This document shows positions 25,235-32,827 of a stretch of 33,353 nucleotides of DNA, piece by piece. This DNA comes from Candidatus Nezhaarchaeota archaeon WYZ-LMO8. Its GTDB lineage: Archaea; Thermoproteota; Methanomethylicia; Nezhaarchaeales; WYZ-LMO8. Both the position numbers and the translations under genes were made by a program. The notes beneath the pieces were generated by a model, which saw only the letters and a list, made by a program, of their open reading frames with translations, was not told the DNA's origin and ran no database searches. Within the stretch, counting starts at the first letter, position 1, and every line of letters starts with the position of its first letter. The stretch is taken from contig QNVF01000012.1 in the NCBI GenBank assembly GCA_004347965.1, forward strand, positions 1 through 33,353, written 5' to 3'.

Positions 25235-25651
25235 TTGGATGCACCTTGTTTCGAGAGCCTAAAAACTCTTAGGATTAAGGCTCTCACAGAGAAGATGTCT
25301 GTAGAGGACGTGATGCGATGTCTCTTAGGTTTAAGTAGAGATGAAGTGAAGACATACTTCATGCTCCTCAACAACTCCATGACTATTGACGAAATAGCTG
25401 AAGTTCTCGGTAAAAGCAAGCCTACTGCTTACAGGATAGCCGTTAAGCTTACTAAAATGGGGCTATTGGTGAGAAAGCCTCACATAATGGAGAAGGGAGG
25501 CTACTACTACAAGTATGAAGCAGTAGAGCCTGAAACGATTAAGAGGGGGATTCAAGAAGTACTAAATGTAGTATGCAAGAAGGTCTTAGAGGCTTTAAGC
25601 CAAGACTTTGCAGAAGTTAAGAGAAAACTTCACGAATCAACAAGTAGGTAA
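25235..25651 (+). CDS. HTH transcriptional regulator (TrmB/ArsR-like wHTH)
   Basis: 138-aa predicted DNA-binding protein. Residues 25-85 form a winged helix-turn-helix: LGLSRDEVKTYFMLLNN, MTIDEIAEVLGKSKPTAYRI (helix-turn-helix proper), then KLTKMGLLVRKP and a wing with GGYYYKYEAV. The C-terminal 45 residues form a charged helix that may dimerise. The frame opens at a TTG (25235) about 30 bases after GTTTATAAG, suggesting a nearly leaderless transcript. An ATG at 25295 is the alternative start. It lies immediately upstream of the Hdr/Fwd-like redox cluster on the same strand, so it is a good candidate for its regulator. No effector domain is recognisable. Confidence 0.82.
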   Translation: MDAPCFESLKTLRIKALTEKMSVEDVMRCLLGLSRDEVKTYFMLLNNSMTIDEIAEVLGKSKPTAYRIAVKLTKMGLLVRKPHIMEKGGYYYKYEAVEPETIKRGIQEVLNVVCKKVLEALSQDFAEVKRKLHESTSR

Positions 25652-25728: not shown

Positions 25729-26196
25729 TTGTCGAGTAGGATTTCTCCTCTACAAGTCTACAAATTCCTGCCGGGACTAAATTGCAAGAAGTGTGGCACG
25801 ACGTGCATGGGCTTTGCGGTCAAGCTAATAAGCCGACAAGCAAAAATTGAAGACTGTCCTCCACTGGTTAACGATCCTAAGTACTCCGATAAACTTACTA
25901 AGTTGAGGGACCTATTAGCTCCATTAACTTCAGCTACTGAAACATTAGTTCAAATAGATTCCGATAAGTGTATTGGATGCGGTAACTGCATCGTGGCTTG
26001 TCCCGAGAACATCATTTTAGATCCTCCATCAGCTAGAGGCTGTAATTCTAAGAGTCCCAATGCTTTATGGACCGTGGAAGATGGAAAGATAAAAGTCTTG
26101 CATCTAGAGAAGTGTAGGCGTTACCCACCCTCAAGAATGAACTGTAACGTCTGCGAAATAGTTTGCTATAGTGGAGCGATTAAGGTTGTGGCTTAA
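25729..26196 (+). CDS. Fe-S protein with PF04060-type Fe-S domain and ferredoxin clusters
   Basis: 155-aa cytoplasmic iron-sulfur protein. The N-terminus has the 'putative Fe-S cluster' layout of RnfB and CODH/ACS subunits: LNCKKCGTTCMGFAV with C19, C22, C26 and a fourth Cys at 43. A ferredoxin-type group follows (C81, C84, C87, C91 in CIGCGNCIVACP). The end has C129, C139, C142 and C146, spaced irregularly but usable for another cluster. It starts at a TTG after GGGAG and ends two bases before the FwdB-like gene. In this cluster it occupies the role that the two-cluster ferredoxin FwdG has in methanogens, but its domain order differs, so the name FwdG is not applied. Confidence 0.82.
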   Translation: MSSRISPLQVYKFLPGLNCKKCGTTCMGFAVKLISRQAKIEDCPPLVNDPKYSDKLTKLRDLLAPLTSATETLVQIDSDKCIGCGNCIVACPENIILDPPSARGCNSKSPNALWTVEDGKIKVLHLEKCRRYPPSRMNCNVCEIVCYSGAIKVVA

Positions 26197-26198
26197 AG

Positions 26199-27434
26199 AT
26201 GATGATTGAGAATATTGTTTGTACAGGATGCTCACTGTTATGCAATGACGTTGACGTTGAGGTCCAAGCTTCTTCAATAAAAAGAACTAGAGGAGCTTGT
26301 AGCCATGGAGATTCTAGGCTTAAAGGCTTCCAACAGAATAGACTTCGAAGACCTTTAATTGATGGCACTCCAACCGACATTGACAAAGCCATTGAGGCTA
26401 CTACTGAGAGACTTAAGTCGGCTAAGGCGCCTCTAATTTATGGGGGTGAGTGCTCAAGCAACAGAACCATAGAGTTAGCATTGAAGCTGGCTGAAAGATT
26501 GGAGGCGTACTACGATGCTCCGCCATCAATATGCAGGGTTGTTATACCGATTCAAGAAGAGCTTGAAATTAAAAGTTTCAGCTTAGATGAGGTTCTAGAC
26601 GAAGCGGACTTCATAATATACTGGGGTGTGAGCGCTGCAGACACGCACTTACGACATGCTAGTCGGTATGCAGTCATGCCTAGAGGAAGCGTGGTAAAGA
26701 TGGGAAGGGAAAGCAGAATCGTGGCTACCATAGATGCCAGAGAATCCATGACCATGAAGATATCTCAACACAAGATATTGATTGATCCGTGCTTCGATAC
26801 TAGAATAGCGAAAGCCATAGCGGACTTAGTAGATGGATACAGTCCATCATTAGATGACGTTACGGCGAGGCAGATAGCTATCCTAGTATCAGATCTTAAG
26901 AGGGCCTCTTTCGTAGCCTTATTCCTAGGCTCTAACATTCTGAGATGTAATTATTGTGGAGAGACTGTTAGGGGGATCTTGGAGTCAGTGAGAAGGTTAA
27001 GCGCAAGGTATAAGTGCTCAGTTCACCCGATGGCTGAGAACGTTAACTCTTATGGTCAAGCAAAGATCATGTGGAAGACCTTGAAGACTTGCTCCCCCTA
27101 TAGCTTTAAGGAAAAGAAGTCAGCAGAGCCCCTCCACGTCTTAGTTGCACGTCAAGCTATCGACTTCGTCTTAGCGATTAATAGTGACGTCTTGACTCAA
27201 ATACCTCTTGAGGCCTCAAGAAGTCTTAGGATGAAGTTAGCCTGCACCACCGAGTTAAGGAGTATAACTCAAGAGAACTCAGTGATTGCAATGCCGATTA
27301 AAATCCTAGGAGTTGAAGCAGGAGGTGTCGTAACCAGAACAGATGGTGTGAATGTAGATCTTAAACCGTTCATAACTAATGACGAAGTCCCTAGCGAGGA
27401 GGAAGTCTTAAGTCGCTTACTAGCCAGTATTTGA
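26199..27434 (+). CDS. FwdB/FmdB-like molybdopterin oxidoreductase subunit with altered active site
   Basis: 411-aa member of the formylmethanofuran dehydrogenase subunit B family, which holds the Mo/W bis-pterin and one [4Fe-4S] cluster. The N-terminal cluster ligands are C8, C11, C15 and C34 (VCTGCSLLCND). The pterin-binding fold continues with PLIYGGECSSNRTIELA, FIIYWGVSAADTHLR, and the C-terminal VLAINSDVL and GVEAGGVVTRTDG, as in FwdB. Cys112 in PPSICRVV aligns with the metal-ligand Cys, but the next residues are Arg-Val-Val instead of His-Gly-Pro. The usual R-G-H-x-N segment appears as MAENVN. FwdB/formate dehydrogenase chemistry may therefore be lost. The dinucleotide-binding domain is separate (FwdD-like, 31124-31483, minus), as in FwdB. 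Confidence 0.85.
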   Translation: MMIENIVCTGCSLLCNDVDVEVQASSIKRTRGACSHGDSRLKGFQQNRLRRPLIDGTPTDIDKAIEATTERLKSAKAPLIYGGECSSNRTIELALKLAERLEAYYDAPPSICRVVIPIQEELEIKSFSLDEVLDEADFIIYWGVSAADTHLRHASRYAVMPRGSVVKMGRESRIVATIDARESMTMKISQHKILIDPCFDTRIAKAIADLVDGYSPSLDDVTARQIAILVSDLKRASFVALFLGSNILRCNYCGETVRGILESVRRLSARYKCSVHPMAENVNSYGQAKIMWKTLKTCSPYSFKEKKSAEPLHVLVARQAIDFVLAINSDVLTQIPLEASRSLRMKLACTTELRSITQENSVIAMPIKILGVEAGGVVTRTDGVNVDLKPFITNDEVPSEEEVLSRLLASI

Positions 27435-27444
27435 GGGACTAAAA

Positions 27445-29835
27445 TTGATTCAATGCGATGAAGGTGTATCAAATCAAAGGAGCTTAGGAAAGGATAAGGT
27501 ACTACTCTTTGTATGTAGATGTGGTACGAACATAGCTGGGACTGTGAACATAGATGACGTGCTTAAGCACTTTTCTGGTAGAGAAGGAGTTGTTGTTAAA
27601 GAACATGAACATTGCTGCAGCGATGATGGGATTAAGAAGATAAGGGACTCTATAAGGGAAGTAGGAGCATTAAGGTTAGTAATAGCATGCTGCACTCCAT
27701 CACTCCATGGAGAACTCTTTAAGAAAGTTGCTGAAGAAGCTGGCTTAAATCGAGGTTTTGTAGAGATAGTAAATATACGAGAGCAATGCTCATGGGTCCA
27801 CTACCATGATCCTGAAAGAGCTACGAATAAAGCCATAGATCTCATAGAGATGGGCTTAGCTGCTATTCCCCATGCATTACCAGCTAAGCTGGTTAAAGTG
27901 CCTATTGAAAGGTCTGTTCTAGTGCTAGGTGGAGGTGTTGCTGGAGTAACTGTAGCTCTACTACTAGCAGAAATGGGCATAAAGGTGTACTTAGTAGAGA
28001 GGGAGGGCTTTATCGGAGGTCACATGGCTAAGTGGGATAAGGTGTATCCAACACTGGATTGTAGCATATGCGTCTTAGGTCCACAGCTCTCAAAAGTGTA
28101 CAATCATCCAAACATAAAAGTCTTCACGCTCAGTGAGGTCAAGTCAGTAAGGGGAATTCTAGGCAATTACGAAGTTGAAATAGTGAAAAGGGCTAGGTAC
28201 GTAGATGAGGGGTTATGCAATGGATGTAATAAGTGCCTTGATGTGTGCCCCATACAGCTTCCAAACGAATACAATTATGGCATTGGCTTCAGGTCCGCGA
28301 TAGTTAAGCCATCACCAGAAGCCGTTCCGCCTGCACCTTACATAGATTTAAAGCATTGTATTGGTTGTTACTGCTGCGTCGGCGTTTGCGATCCTAAAGC
28401 AATAAACTTTAATGATGAGGACAAAACCATCAAACTCAAAGTTGGTGCAATAGTAGTTGCCACCGGCTTTAAGCCCTTCGATCCTCGAATACTTGAGGAG
28501 TATGGTTACGGAAGAATACCTGACGTAATCATCAGTGCTGAGTATGAAAGGATATTAAATAGCTCAGGACCAACTAAAGGGAAGATAATTAGGATATCTG
28601 ATGGAAGAGAGCCTAGAAAGATCGCTTTCATACAATGCGTTGGCAGTAGAAGCGATAGATTGGGTCGTAGATATTGTAGTAGGGTCTGTTGTAACAACGC
28701 CATAAAGCAAGCTATTCAAACGAAGCTCATGATCCCAGATAGCGATATTAAGATTTTCTATGTTGATGTAAGGGCGACAGGAAAGCTGAGCGAAGAAGCT
28801 TATAGGCGAGCAATGGATATGGGCATCAGTTTTGTGAAAGCTAGAGTGAGCGAACTGAAGAAGACTAAGGATGGCAAAATAAGAATGTTTTATGAGGACG
28901 TCTTAAGCCAAGAGTTTGTGGAAGAAGACTTCGATCTAGTAGTCTTAAGCATTGGAATGGAACCTCCTGAAGGTATTAGAGATCTAGCTTCAATGCTTGG
29001 TATCCCTCTAAGTGAAGATGGCTTTCTTGCAGAGTATCATCTTAAGCTTAATCCAGCTGATACCTTCTGTAGAGGGATATACCTAGCTGGTGCTTGCTCT
29101 GGTCCTAAGGACATAACTGAGACCGTAACTCAAGCTGGACTAGCTGCTTCAAGAGTTGCAGAACTCTTAAGAAAAGGGGAGGTAGAGGTGGAGCTTCATG
29201 CTCCAGTGATTGACAAGTCTAAATGCATGTTGTGCTTAAATTGCGTTAGAGCATGCCCCTTCGGAACGTTGAAAGTAGGCGAGAAAGGCGTCGTCATTGA
29301 TGAGGTTGCTTGTAGAGGTTGTGGAGCATGCATAGCAGCATGCCCATCAGGAGCCATATCTCCCTCAAGCTTCTTAAGCGATCACCAAATACTAGCCATG
29401 CTCAAAGCGTTACTTTCAAGGAAGAGCGAGTATCCTTTGATAGTTGCCTTTATGTGTATGTGGTGCGGCTATGCTGCAGCTGATAATGCTGGGTTAAATA
29501 AGGTGGTCTATCCAACGAACATCAGAATCATAAGGATCCCTTGTGCTGTTAGAGTTCCTCCAAATCACGTGCTAGAAGCCTTTAAGCTTGGAGCTGATGG
29601 AGTAATGATTTTGGGCTGCTACGAACAGGATTGCCACTATAGGTTCGGAAGAATTAAGGCAAACGAAAGAGTTGAGGTTCTCAAGGAGCTCTTAAAGGAG
29701 ATCGGAGTGAATCCTGAGAGACTCGTAATCGATGGTGTTGCTGCATCTGAAGGTAAAAAGGTAGCTGAACTTGTAAGCTCCTTCGTTGAGAAAGTGGCTA
29801 AGCTTGGACCAATAGGCTCAGAGTTTGGAGCGTGA
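27445..29835 (+). CDS. hdrA: HdrA-MvhD fusion: flavin-containing heterodisulfide reductase subunit A with hydrogenase delta domain
   Basis: 796-aa soluble flavoprotein, the electron-bifurcating core of HdrABC complexes. Order: an N-terminal cluster domain with VCRCGTNIAG, HEHCCSDDG and NIREQCSWVH; an FAD fold with LGGGVAGVTVALLLAEMG (GGGVAG 162-167); and the HdrA Cys loop TLDCSICVLGPQL (206-209). An inserted ferredoxin has CNGCNKCLDVCP and CIGCYCCVGVC (258-315). A C-terminal ferredoxin has CMLCLNCVRACP and CRGCGACIAACP (594-633). Residues about 663-796 are an MvhD-like domain with CMWC (671, 674), C700 and GCYEQDCHY. The fusion would link HdrA directly to the electron-input partner. TTG start after GAGGGA. 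The FwdF gene overlaps its end by 11 bases. Confidence 0.93.
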   Translation: MIQCDEGVSNQRSLGKDKVLLFVCRCGTNIAGTVNIDDVLKHFSGREGVVVKEHEHCCSDDGIKKIRDSIREVGALRLVIACCTPSLHGELFKKVAEEAGLNRGFVEIVNIREQCSWVHYHDPERATNKAIDLIEMGLAAIPHALPAKLVKVPIERSVLVLGGGVAGVTVALLLAEMGIKVYLVEREGFIGGHMAKWDKVYPTLDCSICVLGPQLSKVYNHPNIKVFTLSEVKSVRGILGNYEVEIVKRARYVDEGLCNGCNKCLDVCPIQLPNEYNYGIGFRSAIVKPSPEAVPPAPYIDLKHCIGCYCCVGVCDPKAINFNDEDKTIKLKVGAIVVATGFKPFDPRILEEYGYGRIPDVIISAEYERILNSSGPTKGKIIRISDGREPRKIAFIQCVGSRSDRLGRRYCSRVCCNNAIKQAIQTKLMIPDSDIKIFYVDVRATGKLSEEAYRRAMDMGISFVKARVSELKKTKDGKIRMFYEDVLSQEFVEEDFDLVVLSIGMEPPEGIRDLASMLGIPLSEDGFLAEYHLKLNPADTFCRGIYLAGACSGPKDITETVTQAGLAASRVAELLRKGEVEVELHAPVIDKSKCMLCLNCVRACPFGTLKVGEKGVVIDEVACRGCGACIAACPSGAISPSSFLSDHQILAMLKALLSRKSEYPLIVAFMCMWCGYAAADNAGLNKVVYPTNIRIIRIPCAVRVPPNHVLEAFKLGADGVMILGCYEQDCHYRFGRIKANERVEVLKELLKEIGVNPERLVIDGVAASEGKKVAELVSSFVEKVAKLGPIGSEFGA

Positions 29836-31138
29836 GAGAGCATTGCAGTCACTAAAACCAACTCTTGAAGTTGAAGTGGAGGAGAAGGCTCTAAACTATA
29901 GGTGGAGAGGACCAGTCCTAGAGAAGAAGCTTGTATACGACCTTGACAAGTGCTTTGGTTGTGGTCTATGTGAGATTGTGTGTCCAGTGAAAGCGATATC
30001 CATGGGGCCAATTAAGGAGATAGCCTCTGGTAGAATCAGCGCACCTTACATAATAATCGATGAGACGAGATGTGTAGTTTGCCCGCTCTGCTCATCGATT
30101 TGCCCTTCAGGAGCTCTAAAGCTCGAGCTACAATCAGACTTTGAGCACCCGAGAGTTAAAGGCCGCATAGAGGTAGACAAGAGTGAGTGCATTCCGTGTC
30201 TGCTATGCGAGAAGGTGTGCCCTAGAAAAGCCATCAAAGCTGAAGTCTCAGTTAAAAAGAAGAGTGAGCTCGTCAAGTACCTTGAGGAAGGTAATGCTTG
30301 GGGTAGAGGAAGAATAAGTATAGATGTTGACAAATGCTGTTTTTGCGGCTTATGTGAGCTTTTGTGCGATGCAGTGAAAATAGAATGGATTAACCCTCAA
30401 CCACCAGACTTCAAGCTTGGAGTATCGATAAGAGTTAATGAAGAGAAGTGTGATTATTGTGGTCTATGCGAAAAGATATGTCCAGTAAGAGCAATCAAAG
30501 TTGAGTGCGTAGAATCTGCTCCTAGGGAAATCAAGGAACCAGTTATTGAGGGATCAATTAAGATAAGTGAAGACTGCATTTGGTGTGGGCTCTGTAGTAG
30601 CCTTTGCCCGGTAAAAGCGATCAAGGTCGAAAAGCCATTTGAAGGAGACGTCTACATGATCGAGCCAAACGATTGCGATCCTTCAGGGTGTAAAAACTGT
30701 ATTAACATATGTCCTGCGAAGATAGTTTACGTGGCCAGACCTCCATCAAAGGAGAAAATGCTTTTCACGAAGAACTATTGTATATTTTGCGGTTCATGTG
30801 AAAGAGCATGCCCAGTTGATGCCATTAGAGTTGCTAGAAAAAGCATGAGAGTTGAAAGCTCAAAGTCTCCTTGGATGGATATGAGCAACGAGCAATTTAG
30901 AAAGGTGCTATATGGCTACAAGCACCCGAGACCAAGCATTTATCATAGAGTTGTAAAGTTAGAGGAAGCACCTATAGCGCTTCCACAGCCTCTAACTACA
31001 CCACCAACACCTAAAGGCTTTAGCAGAGTCGTTGAGGGGATCGAGAGGGTCGAGAAGCTATTGTCGAGTGTGCTGGGAAGAGTCCTCTTTGAGCGACGTG
31101 AGGTCAGAAGATTGCTATCTAATTTAAGAGGTGAATAA
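29825..31138 (+). CDS. fwdF: FwdF-type polyferredoxin with eight 4Fe-4S motifs
   Basis: 437-aa electron-wire protein. Eight CxxCxxCxxxC-type groups are visible in order: CFGCGLCEIVCP, CVVCPLCSSICP, CIPCLLCEKVCP, CCFCGLCELLC (no following Pro), CDYCGLCEKICP, CIWCGLCSSLCP, CDPSGCKNCINICP (wider first spacing), and CIFCGSCERACP. FwdF in methanogens also carries eight clusters and bridges formylmethanofuran dehydrogenase with Hdr. The C-terminal 100 residues lack cysteines, ending in a charged helix. It starts at a TTG (29825) overlapping HdrA; a second TTG at 29843 is possible. The 3' end overlaps the opposite-strand FwdD-like gene by 15 bases. Confidence 0.9.
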   Translation: MERERALQSLKPTLEVEVEEKALNYRWRGPVLEKKLVYDLDKCFGCGLCEIVCPVKAISMGPIKEIASGRISAPYIIIDETRCVVCPLCSSICPSGALKLELQSDFEHPRVKGRIEVDKSECIPCLLCEKVCPRKAIKAEVSVKKKSELVKYLEEGNAWGRGRISIDVDKCCFCGLCELLCDAVKIEWINPQPPDFKLGVSIRVNEEKCDYCGLCEKICPVRAIKVECVESAPREIKEPVIEGSIKISEDCIWCGLCSSLCPVKAIKVEKPFEGDVYMIEPNDCDPSGCKNCINICPAKIVYVARPPSKEKMLFTKNYCIFCGSCERACPVDAIRVARKSMRVESSKSPWMDMSNEQFRKVLYGYKHPRPSIYHRVVKLEEAPIALPQPLTTPPTPKGFSRVVEGIERVEKLLSSVLGRVLFERREVRRLLSNLRGE

Positions 31139-31483
31139 AGTGGTTAAACTTGTGGGTTCTCCACTAGACTTAGAAACTGTTACTTTAATTATGGAAGGAT
31201 GCTCATCGAGTCCTAAGAGGGCCATGGAGTATGGTGAAGGGGGCATGAAGGCTAGGCCCCTCCTAACGTCGCTTCTAACTCTTGCTCTAACCTTCACTGA
31301 ACCATGCTTAGAGGATACTTCAACGATGTCGCCGTCCGATACTCCAAGAATCGAAGAATCCTCTTGGCTTAAGTATATGGTCGCTGATTCTCTACAATAT
31401 TCATTGCTTAAAGAGCCTAAGCGTTTTGCCTTCTCGAAATCGTGTAAACCCTCAATCAGTAAGTTAAGCTCTAGTCTCATCAT
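31124..31483 (-). CDS. fwdD: FwdD-like molybdopterin dinucleotide-binding subunit, inverted within the cluster
   Basis: 119-aa protein of the molybdopterin dinucleotide-binding family, the FwdD/FmdD partner that closes the Mo/W pterin site of FwdB. EGLHDFEKAKRLGSLSNEYC matches the FwdD N-terminus. YLSQEDSSILGVSDGDIVEV, HGSVKVRARVRSD and RRGLAFMPPSPYS match the beta-barrel core with its conserved PP/GP turn. It is encoded opposite to all neighbours: tail-to-tail overlap of 15 bases with the polyferredoxin gene and only 17 bases head-to-head from the HdrC-like GTG. A TTTATTA box inside the hdrC 5' end (about 31505-31512) lies close enough for a leaderless transcript from the tandem ATGs at 31483/31480. 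Confidence 0.85.
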   Translation of the reverse strand: MMRLELNLLIEGLHDFEKAKRLGSLSNEYCRESATIYLSQEDSSILGVSDGDIVEVSSKHGSVKVRARVRSDVRRGLAFMPPSPYSMALLGLDEHPSIIKVTVSKSSGEPTSLTTLFTS

Positions 31484-31500
31484 AGTCTCATAAGGGGTGA

Positions 31501-31980
31501 GTGATAATAAATACGTTTTCCTCTGATGTCAATAAGTGCATTCAGTGTGGAAGCTGTACATCAGCTTGCCCCGTTTCTAGAGCTACTAAGAGGTTTAACC
31601 CTCGATTAATAGTGCTTACTTTCAAGAGAAAAGCACCGCTTAAAAGCGAAGACCTGTGGTTATGCTTAAACTGCCATGTATGTGAGGCTCGATGCCCTAA
31701 CGATGTTAAGGTCTCAAAGATGATTCTTGAAGAGAGGGGTAAGGCCTTAGAAGCTCATGGTGAGGATAGAGTCTTCGAGTTCTACTCAACCTGGATTAGA
31801 GCTCTACTTGATAGCGGCGTCATAGCTTTCGCAACCAACACTAAGGTAGAAGACTTCAAGGCTGAGAGTGGACTCAACATTCCAACGCTTACAGAGAGTG
31901 TAAAGCTTGAGCTTCGTAACTTTCTGAGAAGTATAAGCTTAGAAGCGAGGTTAAGGGAGGTAATGGGCTTTGAGAGGTAA
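31501..31980 (+). CDS. hdrC: heterodisulfide reductase subunit C
   Basis: 159-aa soluble ferredoxin-like subunit that carries electrons from HdrA to HdrB. Two canonical [4Fe-4S] groups: KCIQCGSCTSACP (C13, C16, C19, C23) and CLNCHVCEARCP (C55, C58, C61, C65), with the typical FNPR/P spacer between them. The remaining helical part (KMILEERGKALEAHG) matches HdrC. The GTG at 31501 follows an AAGGGGTGA site with unusually short spacing; no better start exists before the first cluster. It overlaps hdrB by 11 bases. This pair with the HdrA-MvhD fusion gives a complete HdrABC set. Confidence 0.92.
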   Translation: MIINTFSSDVNKCIQCGSCTSACPVSRATKRFNPRLIVLTFKRKAPLKSEDLWLCLNCHVCEARCPNDVKVSKMILEERGKALEAHGEDRVFEFYSTWIRALLDSGVIAFATNTKVEDFKAESGLNIPTLTESVKLELRNFLRSISLEARLREVMGFER

Positions 31981-32827
31981 AGATAAGGGAGGAGTTATAC
32001 TTTATCCTGGCTGCGTCTCCCTTAATAAGTATCCTGGAATAGTTAGGTCAGCTATTGAAGTATTGAAGTTTCTAGGAGTAGAGTTTAGATTCCCCACTAA
32101 CATGCTTTGTTGCTCACGTCCACTTGAGAGAATCGGAGTTTTAAAGGAAGAGTACACCAACGCTCTCGCCTACTTCAATTTAACTAGGCTCATGGATAAT
32201 CCGAGCAGCGTCATTGTTGTGTGTAATGGATGTTATCTATCTTTCCGTAGAGCCTTAGAAGTTAACGAGCTTAGAAGCAGTTATGGAGTTGAAGCTGAGT
32301 GCTCTCACATAGCTGAGGTTATATGGCGGAATAGGCATGAGCTTGCCAGTCAAGCTAAGGTTAAGCTTAATAAGCTAAGAGTTGCTGTCCACGTTGGCTG
32401 TCACTACCTCTACTATCCGCATGGCGACATAATCAAGAGCGAGGATGGAGAAGACATTTTAGAAGACATAGCCTTAACGCTTAATGCTGAAGTGGTAGAT
32501 TATGGAGAGAAGCGAACTTGTTGCGGAGGGACCATGGTCAAATGGTTTAGGAATGTAACCTTTGCGATAGCTCGAGAAAAGCTGAAGAGTATTGTAGAGA
32601 GCGATGCCAACGTTATTTTAACAATGTGCCCTTACTGCCTGAGAACTTTTAACAGAGCTCAGCAAAGGCTGAGAGGTCTTAAGGAAATCGAAAGAGTCAT
32701 ACCTGTAATACACGTATCTCAACTAGTCGCCCTAGCCTTAGGTTTTGACCCGGTGAAGATTGCAGGGTTGCATATGCAAATGCCAAATCAAGAGCTTGAG
32801 AGACTTTGTCAAGCTTTAACCTCCTAA
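31970..32827 (+). CDS. hdrB: heterodisulfide reductase subunit B
   Basis: 285-aa catalytic subunit with two CCG domains, each binding a noncubane [4Fe-4S] cluster that reduces disulfides such as CoM-S-S-CoB. First CCG set: C15 in LYPGC, CC47-48 in MLCCSRP, and C85/C88 in VCNGC. Second set: C144 in HVGCHY, CC184-185 in RTCCGGT, and C220/C223 in CPYC. All ten cysteines are present, so the enzyme should be active. The TTG at 31970 overlaps hdrC. The 3' end overlaps the opposite SPOUT-like gene by four bases. The physiological acceptor may be CoM-S-S-CoB if methanogenesis is present, or another disulfide. Confidence 0.92.
   Translation: MRGKDKGGVILYPGCVSLNKYPGIVRSAIEVLKFLGVEFRFPTNMLCCSRPLERIGVLKEEYTNALAYFNLTRLMDNPSSVIVVCNGCYLSFRRALEVNELRSSYGVEAECSHIAEVIWRNRHELASQAKVKLNKLRVAVHVGCHYLYYPHGDIIKSEDGEDILEDIALTLNAEVVDYGEKRTCCGGTMVKWFRNVTFAIAREKLKSIVESDANVILTMCPYCLRTFNRAQQRLRGLKEIERVIPVIHVSQLVALALGFDPVKIAGLHMQMPNQELERLCQALTS

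Follow-up and report, generated by a model that had tools for sequence, protein, structure and literature searches.

The locus considered here raises the question of whether heterodisulfide reductase (Hdr) and formylmethanofuran dehydrogenase (Fwd) subunits that are encoded side by side form one complex, and which half-reaction such a complex would serve. The genes lie within a stretch of 33,353 nucleotides from Candidatus Nezhaarchaeota archaeon WYZ-LMO8 (the window), which is the entire contig C4 of a 1.35 Mb genome (G000) that is 93% complete in 78 contigs. The initial annotation had described seven genes at 25729-32827, for an Fe-S protein (hereafter FeS), a FwdB-like subunit, an HdrA-MvhD fusion, FwdF, a FwdD-like subunit, HdrC and HdrB, with a helix-turn-helix (HTH) regulator upstream, and this set was confirmed, since all of the genes are open and their profile matches are far above chance. 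Our analysis indicates that the gene set is probably one conserved unit encoding one soluble complex and, because its FwdB-like subunit lacks the formate-site residues, that it is probably not engaged in ordinary formylmethanofuran chemistry. The reading that we favour, tentatively and at somewhat under even chances, is that the cluster encodes an HdrA2-type bifurcating complex that is wired through FwdF and a FwdG/CdhE-like adaptor to carbon monoxide dehydrogenase/acetyl-CoA synthase (CODH/ACS) and is built on a repurposed FwdB-FwdD pair (FwdBD).

Canonical FwdBs are recognised by two motifs, Cys118-His119 and Arg288-Gly-His290 (numbering verified on 5t5i_B), which are identical in five solved FwdBs from other archaea. 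Arg288 binds formate/CO2, as is established for formate dehydrogenases. The roles of Cys118, His119 and His290 have been discussed previously (PMC11656701). In 84,980 species genomes scanned, 51 loci of an FeS-linked FwdB family were found, distributed over Methanomethylicia, Bathyarchaeota, Baldrarchaeota, Jordarchaeia, Lokiarchaeia, Helarchaeota, Methanothrix, Methanosarcina and Methanoperedens, and in nearly all of them the FeS gene immediately precedes fwdB, the exceptions being cut contigs and a planctomycete locus (L089). In the tree, 48 FeS-linked FwdBs and 19 canonical FwdBs, the latter drawn from Thermoproteota only, form separate clades with 100/100 support. The equivalent of Arg288 is absent from every FeS-linked sequence in the alignment (0/48) and present in all of the canonical ones (16/16), whereas the four N-terminal [4Fe-4S] cysteines are invariant (48/48). 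Many further residues, D106, D179, N283, R380 and D382 among them, do not vary in the FwdB family. His119 is retained in 19% of the FeS-linked family and the metal ligand Cys118 in 81%, including 8/8 members of the Hdr-type TACK clade, in which His290 is lost; the sequences without the metal ligand are found in several Methanothrix, one Methanoperedens and one Helarchaeota member. The window FwdB itself contains Cys8/11/15/34 for the [4Fe-4S] cluster and Cys112, corresponding to Cys118, but carries Arg in place of His119, Ala in place of Arg288 and Asn in place of His290, and its AlphaFold2 model (pLDDT 94) superposes on 5t5i_B with a TM-score of 0.91 at 25% identity. From the alignment and the model, it appears that the formate-activating residues have gone while the fold and the Fe-S cluster have persisted, together with the metal ligand in the Hdr-type clade, and a formate dehydrogenase-like function of the window FwdB is deemed unlikely given the absence of Arg288 throughout the family. 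Four phylum-level matches (G205, G109, G199 and G187) were considered as distant members of the family and rejected, their loci being canonical fwd operons with CHG and MRGH/LRGH motifs.

A FwdA-like amidohydrolase accompanies the FeS-FwdB unit in Jordarchaeia, Baldrarchaeum and Lokiarchaeia (L055, L057, L058, L061, L074-L084). Asp387 of FwdA is a probable Zn ligand in the M. wolfeii structure, and its equivalent is Asn in four of the five Asgard neighbours checked, so that these proteins, too, may have changed chemistry. The Methanothrix neighbours, OTCase and a BatA-like gene, look unrelated to the cluster.

Two views of the FwdBD pair have to be weighed. In the first, FwdBD would no longer be active on CO2 or formate and would act as a scaffold or relay, as the MopB-family subunit ElpA does in ElpABC-Hdr, where it is an inactive scaffold (PMC12350162), or else would hold an altered molybdenum/tungsten (Mo/W) site. 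In the second, which we consider improbable at about one chance in four, FwdBD is an active enzyme with Mo/W bound to bis-pyranopterin guanosine dinucleotide (bisPGD), and HdrABC links its half-reaction, on a substrate yet to be named, to the chemistry of disulfides and ferredoxin. The conserved metal ligand, the invariant residues and the intact fold described above are in accord with an active enzyme, and so is the pterin-binding FwdD, which is present wherever the extent of the contig lets it be seen. Set against these, the loss of His119 and Arg288, and of His290 in the Hdr-type clade, makes formate or CO2 an unlikely substrate, the metal ligand is evidently dispensable in that part of the family that has lost it, and FwdB is the least constrained subunit besides the regulator.

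The FeS subunit points to a different partner. Over residues 4-51 it resembles the N-terminal [4Fe-4S] domain of the corrinoid Fe-S protein (CFeSP; CdhE/AcsC), with E-values of 1e-16 for the NCBIfam CdhE model and 4e-12 for 2h9a_A, and over 65 amino acids it is 45% identical to the CdhE of its own genome, with four cysteines shared. A fold search gave a weak match, of confident probability, to 9fzy_F from a CODH/ACS-CFeSP structure. The similarity of residues ~73-129 to FwdG extends beyond the cluster motif (9sfi_U, 5e-15; 5t5i_G, 7e-14; fold TM-score of 0.81 on 5t5i_G). All 12 cysteine ligands are invariant across 15 sequences, and the model of the whole subunit is of moderate quality (pLDDT 82, pTM 0.51). 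In the G005 orthologue (L031:9244-9633) the first Cys motif is missing from the open reading frame as called, which could be due to a start further upstream, to a frameshift or to an error in the assembly.

Moreover, the cluster has CODH/ACS genes as immediate neighbours in four of the ~11 lineages in which it includes HdrA: CooC-CdhA-B-C follows hdrB in L042, CdhE-D-C-B-A follows fwdD in L043, CdhD-C-B-A adjoins the cluster in L046 and CooC adjoins it in L045. In several Methanothrix genomes cdhE lies ~9 kb from the FeS-FwdB locus. Within the class, among 28 genomes that are at least 80% complete, the cluster occurs in 5/9 CdhC-positive genomes versus 0/19 CdhC-negative ones, and two cluster-positive genomes, G008 and G018, are without mcrA. 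The CdhE-type domain and the adjoining genes make CODH/ACS the likelier partner, and they shift the weight away from a Mo/W half-reaction with a substrate of its own, which the initial annotation had proposed and which may still take place.

The Hdr subunits have the build of a bifurcating enzyme of the HdrA2 type, with HdrA fused to MvhD and with HdrC and HdrB downstream. HdrA retains the equivalents of E356 and K409 in the alignment to 5odc_A, the residues that have been named as HdrA bifurcation residues (PMC12054007, whose numbering is used here), and HdrB carries C...CC...CxxC twice, the CCG motifs for two non-cubane clusters. FwdF contains the eight CxxC-type motifs for [4Fe-4S] clusters that the initial annotation had counted and an additional C-terminal tail of ~90 amino acids. 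The HdrA2B2C2 enzyme of Methanosarcina acetivorans either bifurcates electrons from F420H2 to ferredoxin and the heterodisulfide of coenzymes M and B (CoM-S-S-CoB), or relays electrons from CODH/ACS via ferredoxin to CoM-S-S-CoB, and a polyferredoxin whose role is unknown is encoded in the same operon as its hdrA2 (PMC5296606). The window cluster shares with it the HdrA-MvhD fusion, HdrB/HdrC and an operon of hdrA with a polyferredoxin, and HdrA2 is the best NCBIfam model, but the window adds the FwdB-like and FwdD-like subunits and the CdhE-FwdG fusion. By its sequence HdrA is HdrA2-like in build but not a proven HdrA2 orthologue, since its score of 980 bits falls short of the cut-off of 1100; the scores of FwdB (246.5/327.8), FwdF (251.6/375) and FwdD (33.8/175) are likewise below the NCBIfam equivalog or exception cut-offs, so that all four are to be read as homologues rather than proven family members.

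We propose that HdrA-MvhD, HdrC and HdrB would act as an electron-bifurcating heterodisulfide reductase whose low-potential branch, at HdrA, would be taken up by FwdF, and that FwdF would hand electrons to the FwdG part of FeS, docked on FwdB. The CdhE-like part of FeS would then contact CODH/ACS and exchange electrons with its CO2/CO site or with the corrinoid protein, so that the adaptor would serve CODH/ACS rather than the reduction of CO2 to formylmethanofuran. CoM-S-S-CoB would serve as the high-potential branch in methanogens. Since the locus contains neither a hydrogenase nor FdhB, F420H2 or ferredoxin could be the mid-potential partner, as for HdrA2B2C2, and the direction of electron flow would be set by metabolism. 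Several observations weigh against this assignment to CODH/ACS. The CODH/ACS operon is not adjacent to the cluster in the window's own genome or in G002 and G005, and FeS-FwdB-FwdD often occurs in Methanothrix and Methanosarcina with no HdrA next to it. The co-occurrence with CdhC also fits the Wood-Ljungdahl pathway generally, canonical Fwd being found in the same genomes and mtd/mer near L042; the association is confounded by phylogeny and by the pathway as a whole. The PF04060 domain type is found, with weaker scores, in RnfB as well and is thus no proof of docking to CFeSP or CODH. Finally, FwdD and Cys112 (8/8 in the Hdr-type clade) are conserved, which suggests that a Mo/W cofactor is bound, something that FwdBD would not need as a scaffold alone.

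The order of the genes, including the inverted fwdD, is shared by G002, G003, G005, G008 and Baldrarchaeota MAG_95 (L042), and is kept in G018, where HdrC/HdrB are not adjacent. In L045, L046 and L047, which lack HdrC/HdrB, the FeS-FwdB pair has the opposite orientation with respect to HdrA-FwdF; even so, fwdD converges with fwdF there, an arrangement that is conserved across phyla. The conserved core therefore consists of FeS, FwdB, FwdD, HdrA and FwdF in TACK archaea, Bathyarchaeota and Baldrarchaeota, with HdrBC optional. In Methanosarcina sp. Ant1 and Methanosalsum (L052, L088) an HdrA-FwdF pair adjoins FeS-FwdB-FwdD. Orthologues of fwdD in the closest relatives are 56-90% identical and lie on the same relative strand, and those of the HTH gene (67-81% identical) precede the cluster at the same position in G002 and G005. 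The ratio of nonsynonymous to synonymous substitution rates (dN/dS) between the window and G002 is 0.03-0.13 for all genes, indicating purifying selection, and FwdB has the highest value within the complex (0.126). That the locus is a decayed fwd operon or a chance remnant of one, to which the missing fwdA/fwdC and the changed catalytic residues might point, is hardly credible in view of these values, the absence of stops and frameshifts, the order conserved across families and phyla and the separate, fully supported clade, and we rejected it. The initial annotation had named, as a finding that would speak against it, a complete fwdABCDFG operon elsewhere with a degraded copy here. An fwdABCD set does exist elsewhere, without F and G, but purifying selection acts on the window locus and its conservation extends across families.

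This second set is on contig C9, which carries fwdA, fwdC and a fused fwdBD, together with mtd, mch and mer (these three named from their sequences), so that fwdA and fwdC, although not encoded at the locus, are not missing from the genome. In the C9 operon (L028:2721-7913) FwdB and FwdD are fused with D at the N-terminus, a fusion that recurs in several relatives. The genome further contains mcrA on C18 and a complete cdhABCDE-cooC operon on C23. The argument that the initial annotation had drawn from the missing fwdA and fwdC is therefore weakened, and its proposal of one soluble complex is instead made probable by the conserved Hdr/Fwd-like unit, the retained E356 and K409 of HdrA and the lost formate-site residues of FwdB. 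The C9 operon is devoid of fwdF and fwdG, and the window FwdF is the sole FwdF-type protein found in a search of its own genome at 1e-10. It is thus conceivable, but in our judgement unlikely, at one chance in five, that FwdF, the FwdG-type subunit and HdrABC from the locus join the C9 FwdABCD in a CO2-reducing Hdr-Fwd supercomplex like that of Methanospirillum, in which the FwdBD-like pair is merely an adaptor; Fdh-Hdr-Fmd and Mvh-Hdr-Fwd supercomplexes are indeed known (PMC12054007). Such a role would, however, leave the FwdB/FwdD pair that always accompanies FeS and FwdF needless, and it does not sit well with the CdhE-type domain of FeS. ANME-1 archaea also lack FwdFG (PMC9012536), so that a canonical Fwd can manage without them, and in the relatives G006 and G007 canonical Fwd and CODH occur without the cluster.

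Two further Hdr loci were seen in the genome. At C34:25900-38000 (L111) genes for HdrC, HdrB and Fe-S proteins are clustered with those for an FdhA-like protein of 636 aa, a double HdrA of 1085 aa and MvhD. Genes resembling Nuo/Ech-type subunits come after them, and this cluster resembles the published type II HdrA-Molybdop cluster. At C1:34500-40100 (L113) the gene for a 786-aa HdrA, 38% identical to the window HdrA, is divergent from that for a 370-aa HdrC-like protein and lies beside two genes resembling electron-transfer flavoproteins (ETF), which suggests an ETF-linked Hdr.

Comparison with characterised systems places the CODH/ACS-linked complex that we favour among variants of Hdr-Fwd type complexes. 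With FwdABCDFG (5T5I) the window shares homologous FwdB, FwdD, FwdF and a FwdG-type domain and the same FwdB fold, but it has no FwdA or FwdC, its FwdB is without His119, Arg288 and His290, and FwdG is fused to a CFeSP-type domain. The Fdh-Hdr-Fmd supercomplex of Methanospirillum hungatei (7BKB) has a similar Hdr core and, by homology, a similar FwdF electron bridge, whereas FdhAB, FwdA and FwdC are not encoded at the window locus. Type II HdrA-Molybdop-FdhB (PMC12054007) and ElpABC-Hdr (PMC12350162) are likewise Hdr complexes with a MopB-family subunit, which is predicted or shown to be non-catalytic there; that subunit is FdhA-like and paired with an F420-oxidising FdhB, whereas the window subunit is FwdB-like, has FwdD rather than FdhB beside it and retains the metal Cys. 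Membership in type II, which is defined by a double HdrA, FdhB and a Molybdop subunit without the metal Cys, was rejected for the window locus given its single HdrA, its lack of FdhB and the presence of Cys112. In Ca. Ethanoperedens thermophilum dedicated ferredoxin-type adaptors are found on CODH (ACDS zeta) and on Fwd (FwdI) (PMC11493965). There, as proposed here, additional ferredoxin-type subunits rewire CODH and Fwd to another electron carrier; those adaptors end in an F420 reductase, whereas the window chain would end in HdrA.

The features of the locus are listed in Table 1. The fwdD gene is antisense within an otherwise co-directional operon, convergent with fwdF, with 3' ends that overlap by 15 bp, and divergent from hdrC, and the 17 bp between the starts of fwdD and hdrC suggest a back-to-back start region. 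Neither this inversion nor the CdhE-FwdG fusion had been noted in the initial annotation.

Table 1. Genes of the Hdr/Fwd-like cluster and its upstream regulator in the window.
Feature	Coordinates	Strand	Evidence
HTH regulator (TrmB/Sta1/Lrs14-like)	25235..25651	+	Pfam TrmB 1e-12; NCBIfam Sta1 2e-14, below cut-off
FeS adaptor subunit	25729..26196	+	CdhE/CFeSP-type [4Fe-4S] domain aa ~4-51 and FwdG-type two-cluster ferredoxin aa ~74-152; PF04060 and Fer4
FwdB-like Mo/W-bisPGD subunit (predicted)	26199..27434	+	TIGR03129 E=4e-73
HdrA-MvhD fusion, HdrA2 type, flavin adenine dinucleotide (FAD) and Fe-S	27445..29835	+	NF040770 (HdrA2) E=6e-295; PF02662 (FlpD/MvhD) aa 666-788
FwdF-type polyferredoxin	29825..31138	+	NF042909 E=1e-74; 5t5i_F E=3e-54
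FwdD-like pterin-binding subunit (predicted)	31124..31483	-	PF01568 (Molydop_binding) 8e-14; NF042908 E=3e-8; 9sfi_S 1e-6
HdrC, two [4Fe-4S] clusters	31501..31980	+	TIGR03290 E=7e-18
HdrB, both CCG motifs	31970..32827	+	TIGR03288 E=1e-37; PF02754 9e-24 (2 stretches); 8rvu_b 3e-29

Each part of the cluster comes from a known family, and it is the combination and the CdhE-FwdG fusion that constitute the new element; no published account of either was found in the literature searched, which excluded subscription journals and preprints. How the low-potential CODH/ACS step is driven or drained, and how the corrinoid protein is re-reduced, is unresolved in most archaeal lineages, and a bifurcating Hdr joined to an adaptor that resembles the corrinoid protein's own Fe-S domain would, if true, be a direct answer. 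The cluster is found in TACK archaea with and without Mcr, in Bathyarchaeota and in Baldrarchaeota, and the FeS-FwdB-FwdD core extends to Methanothrix, Methanosarcina and Lokiarchaeia. It is a bolder and rather doubtful suggestion, with somewhat less than one chance in three, that a neofunctionalised FwdBD and the CdhE-FwdG adaptor tie HdrA bifurcation directly to CODH/ACS as a widespread archaeal system, in which a heterodisulfide or other disulfide would drive the CO2/CO couple or the reductive activation of the corrinoid protein with no free ferredoxin, and in which genomes without mcrA, such as G008 and G018, would use a disulfide other than CoM-S-S-CoB. FwdB homologues without a formate site may also be annotated as formylmethanofuran dehydrogenase, so that counts of archaeal CO2-fixing capacity may be inflated. 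The cluster may thus be an electron link between altered subunits of a CO2-capturing enzyme, together with an electron splitter, and the carbon monoxide/acetyl-CoA enzyme.

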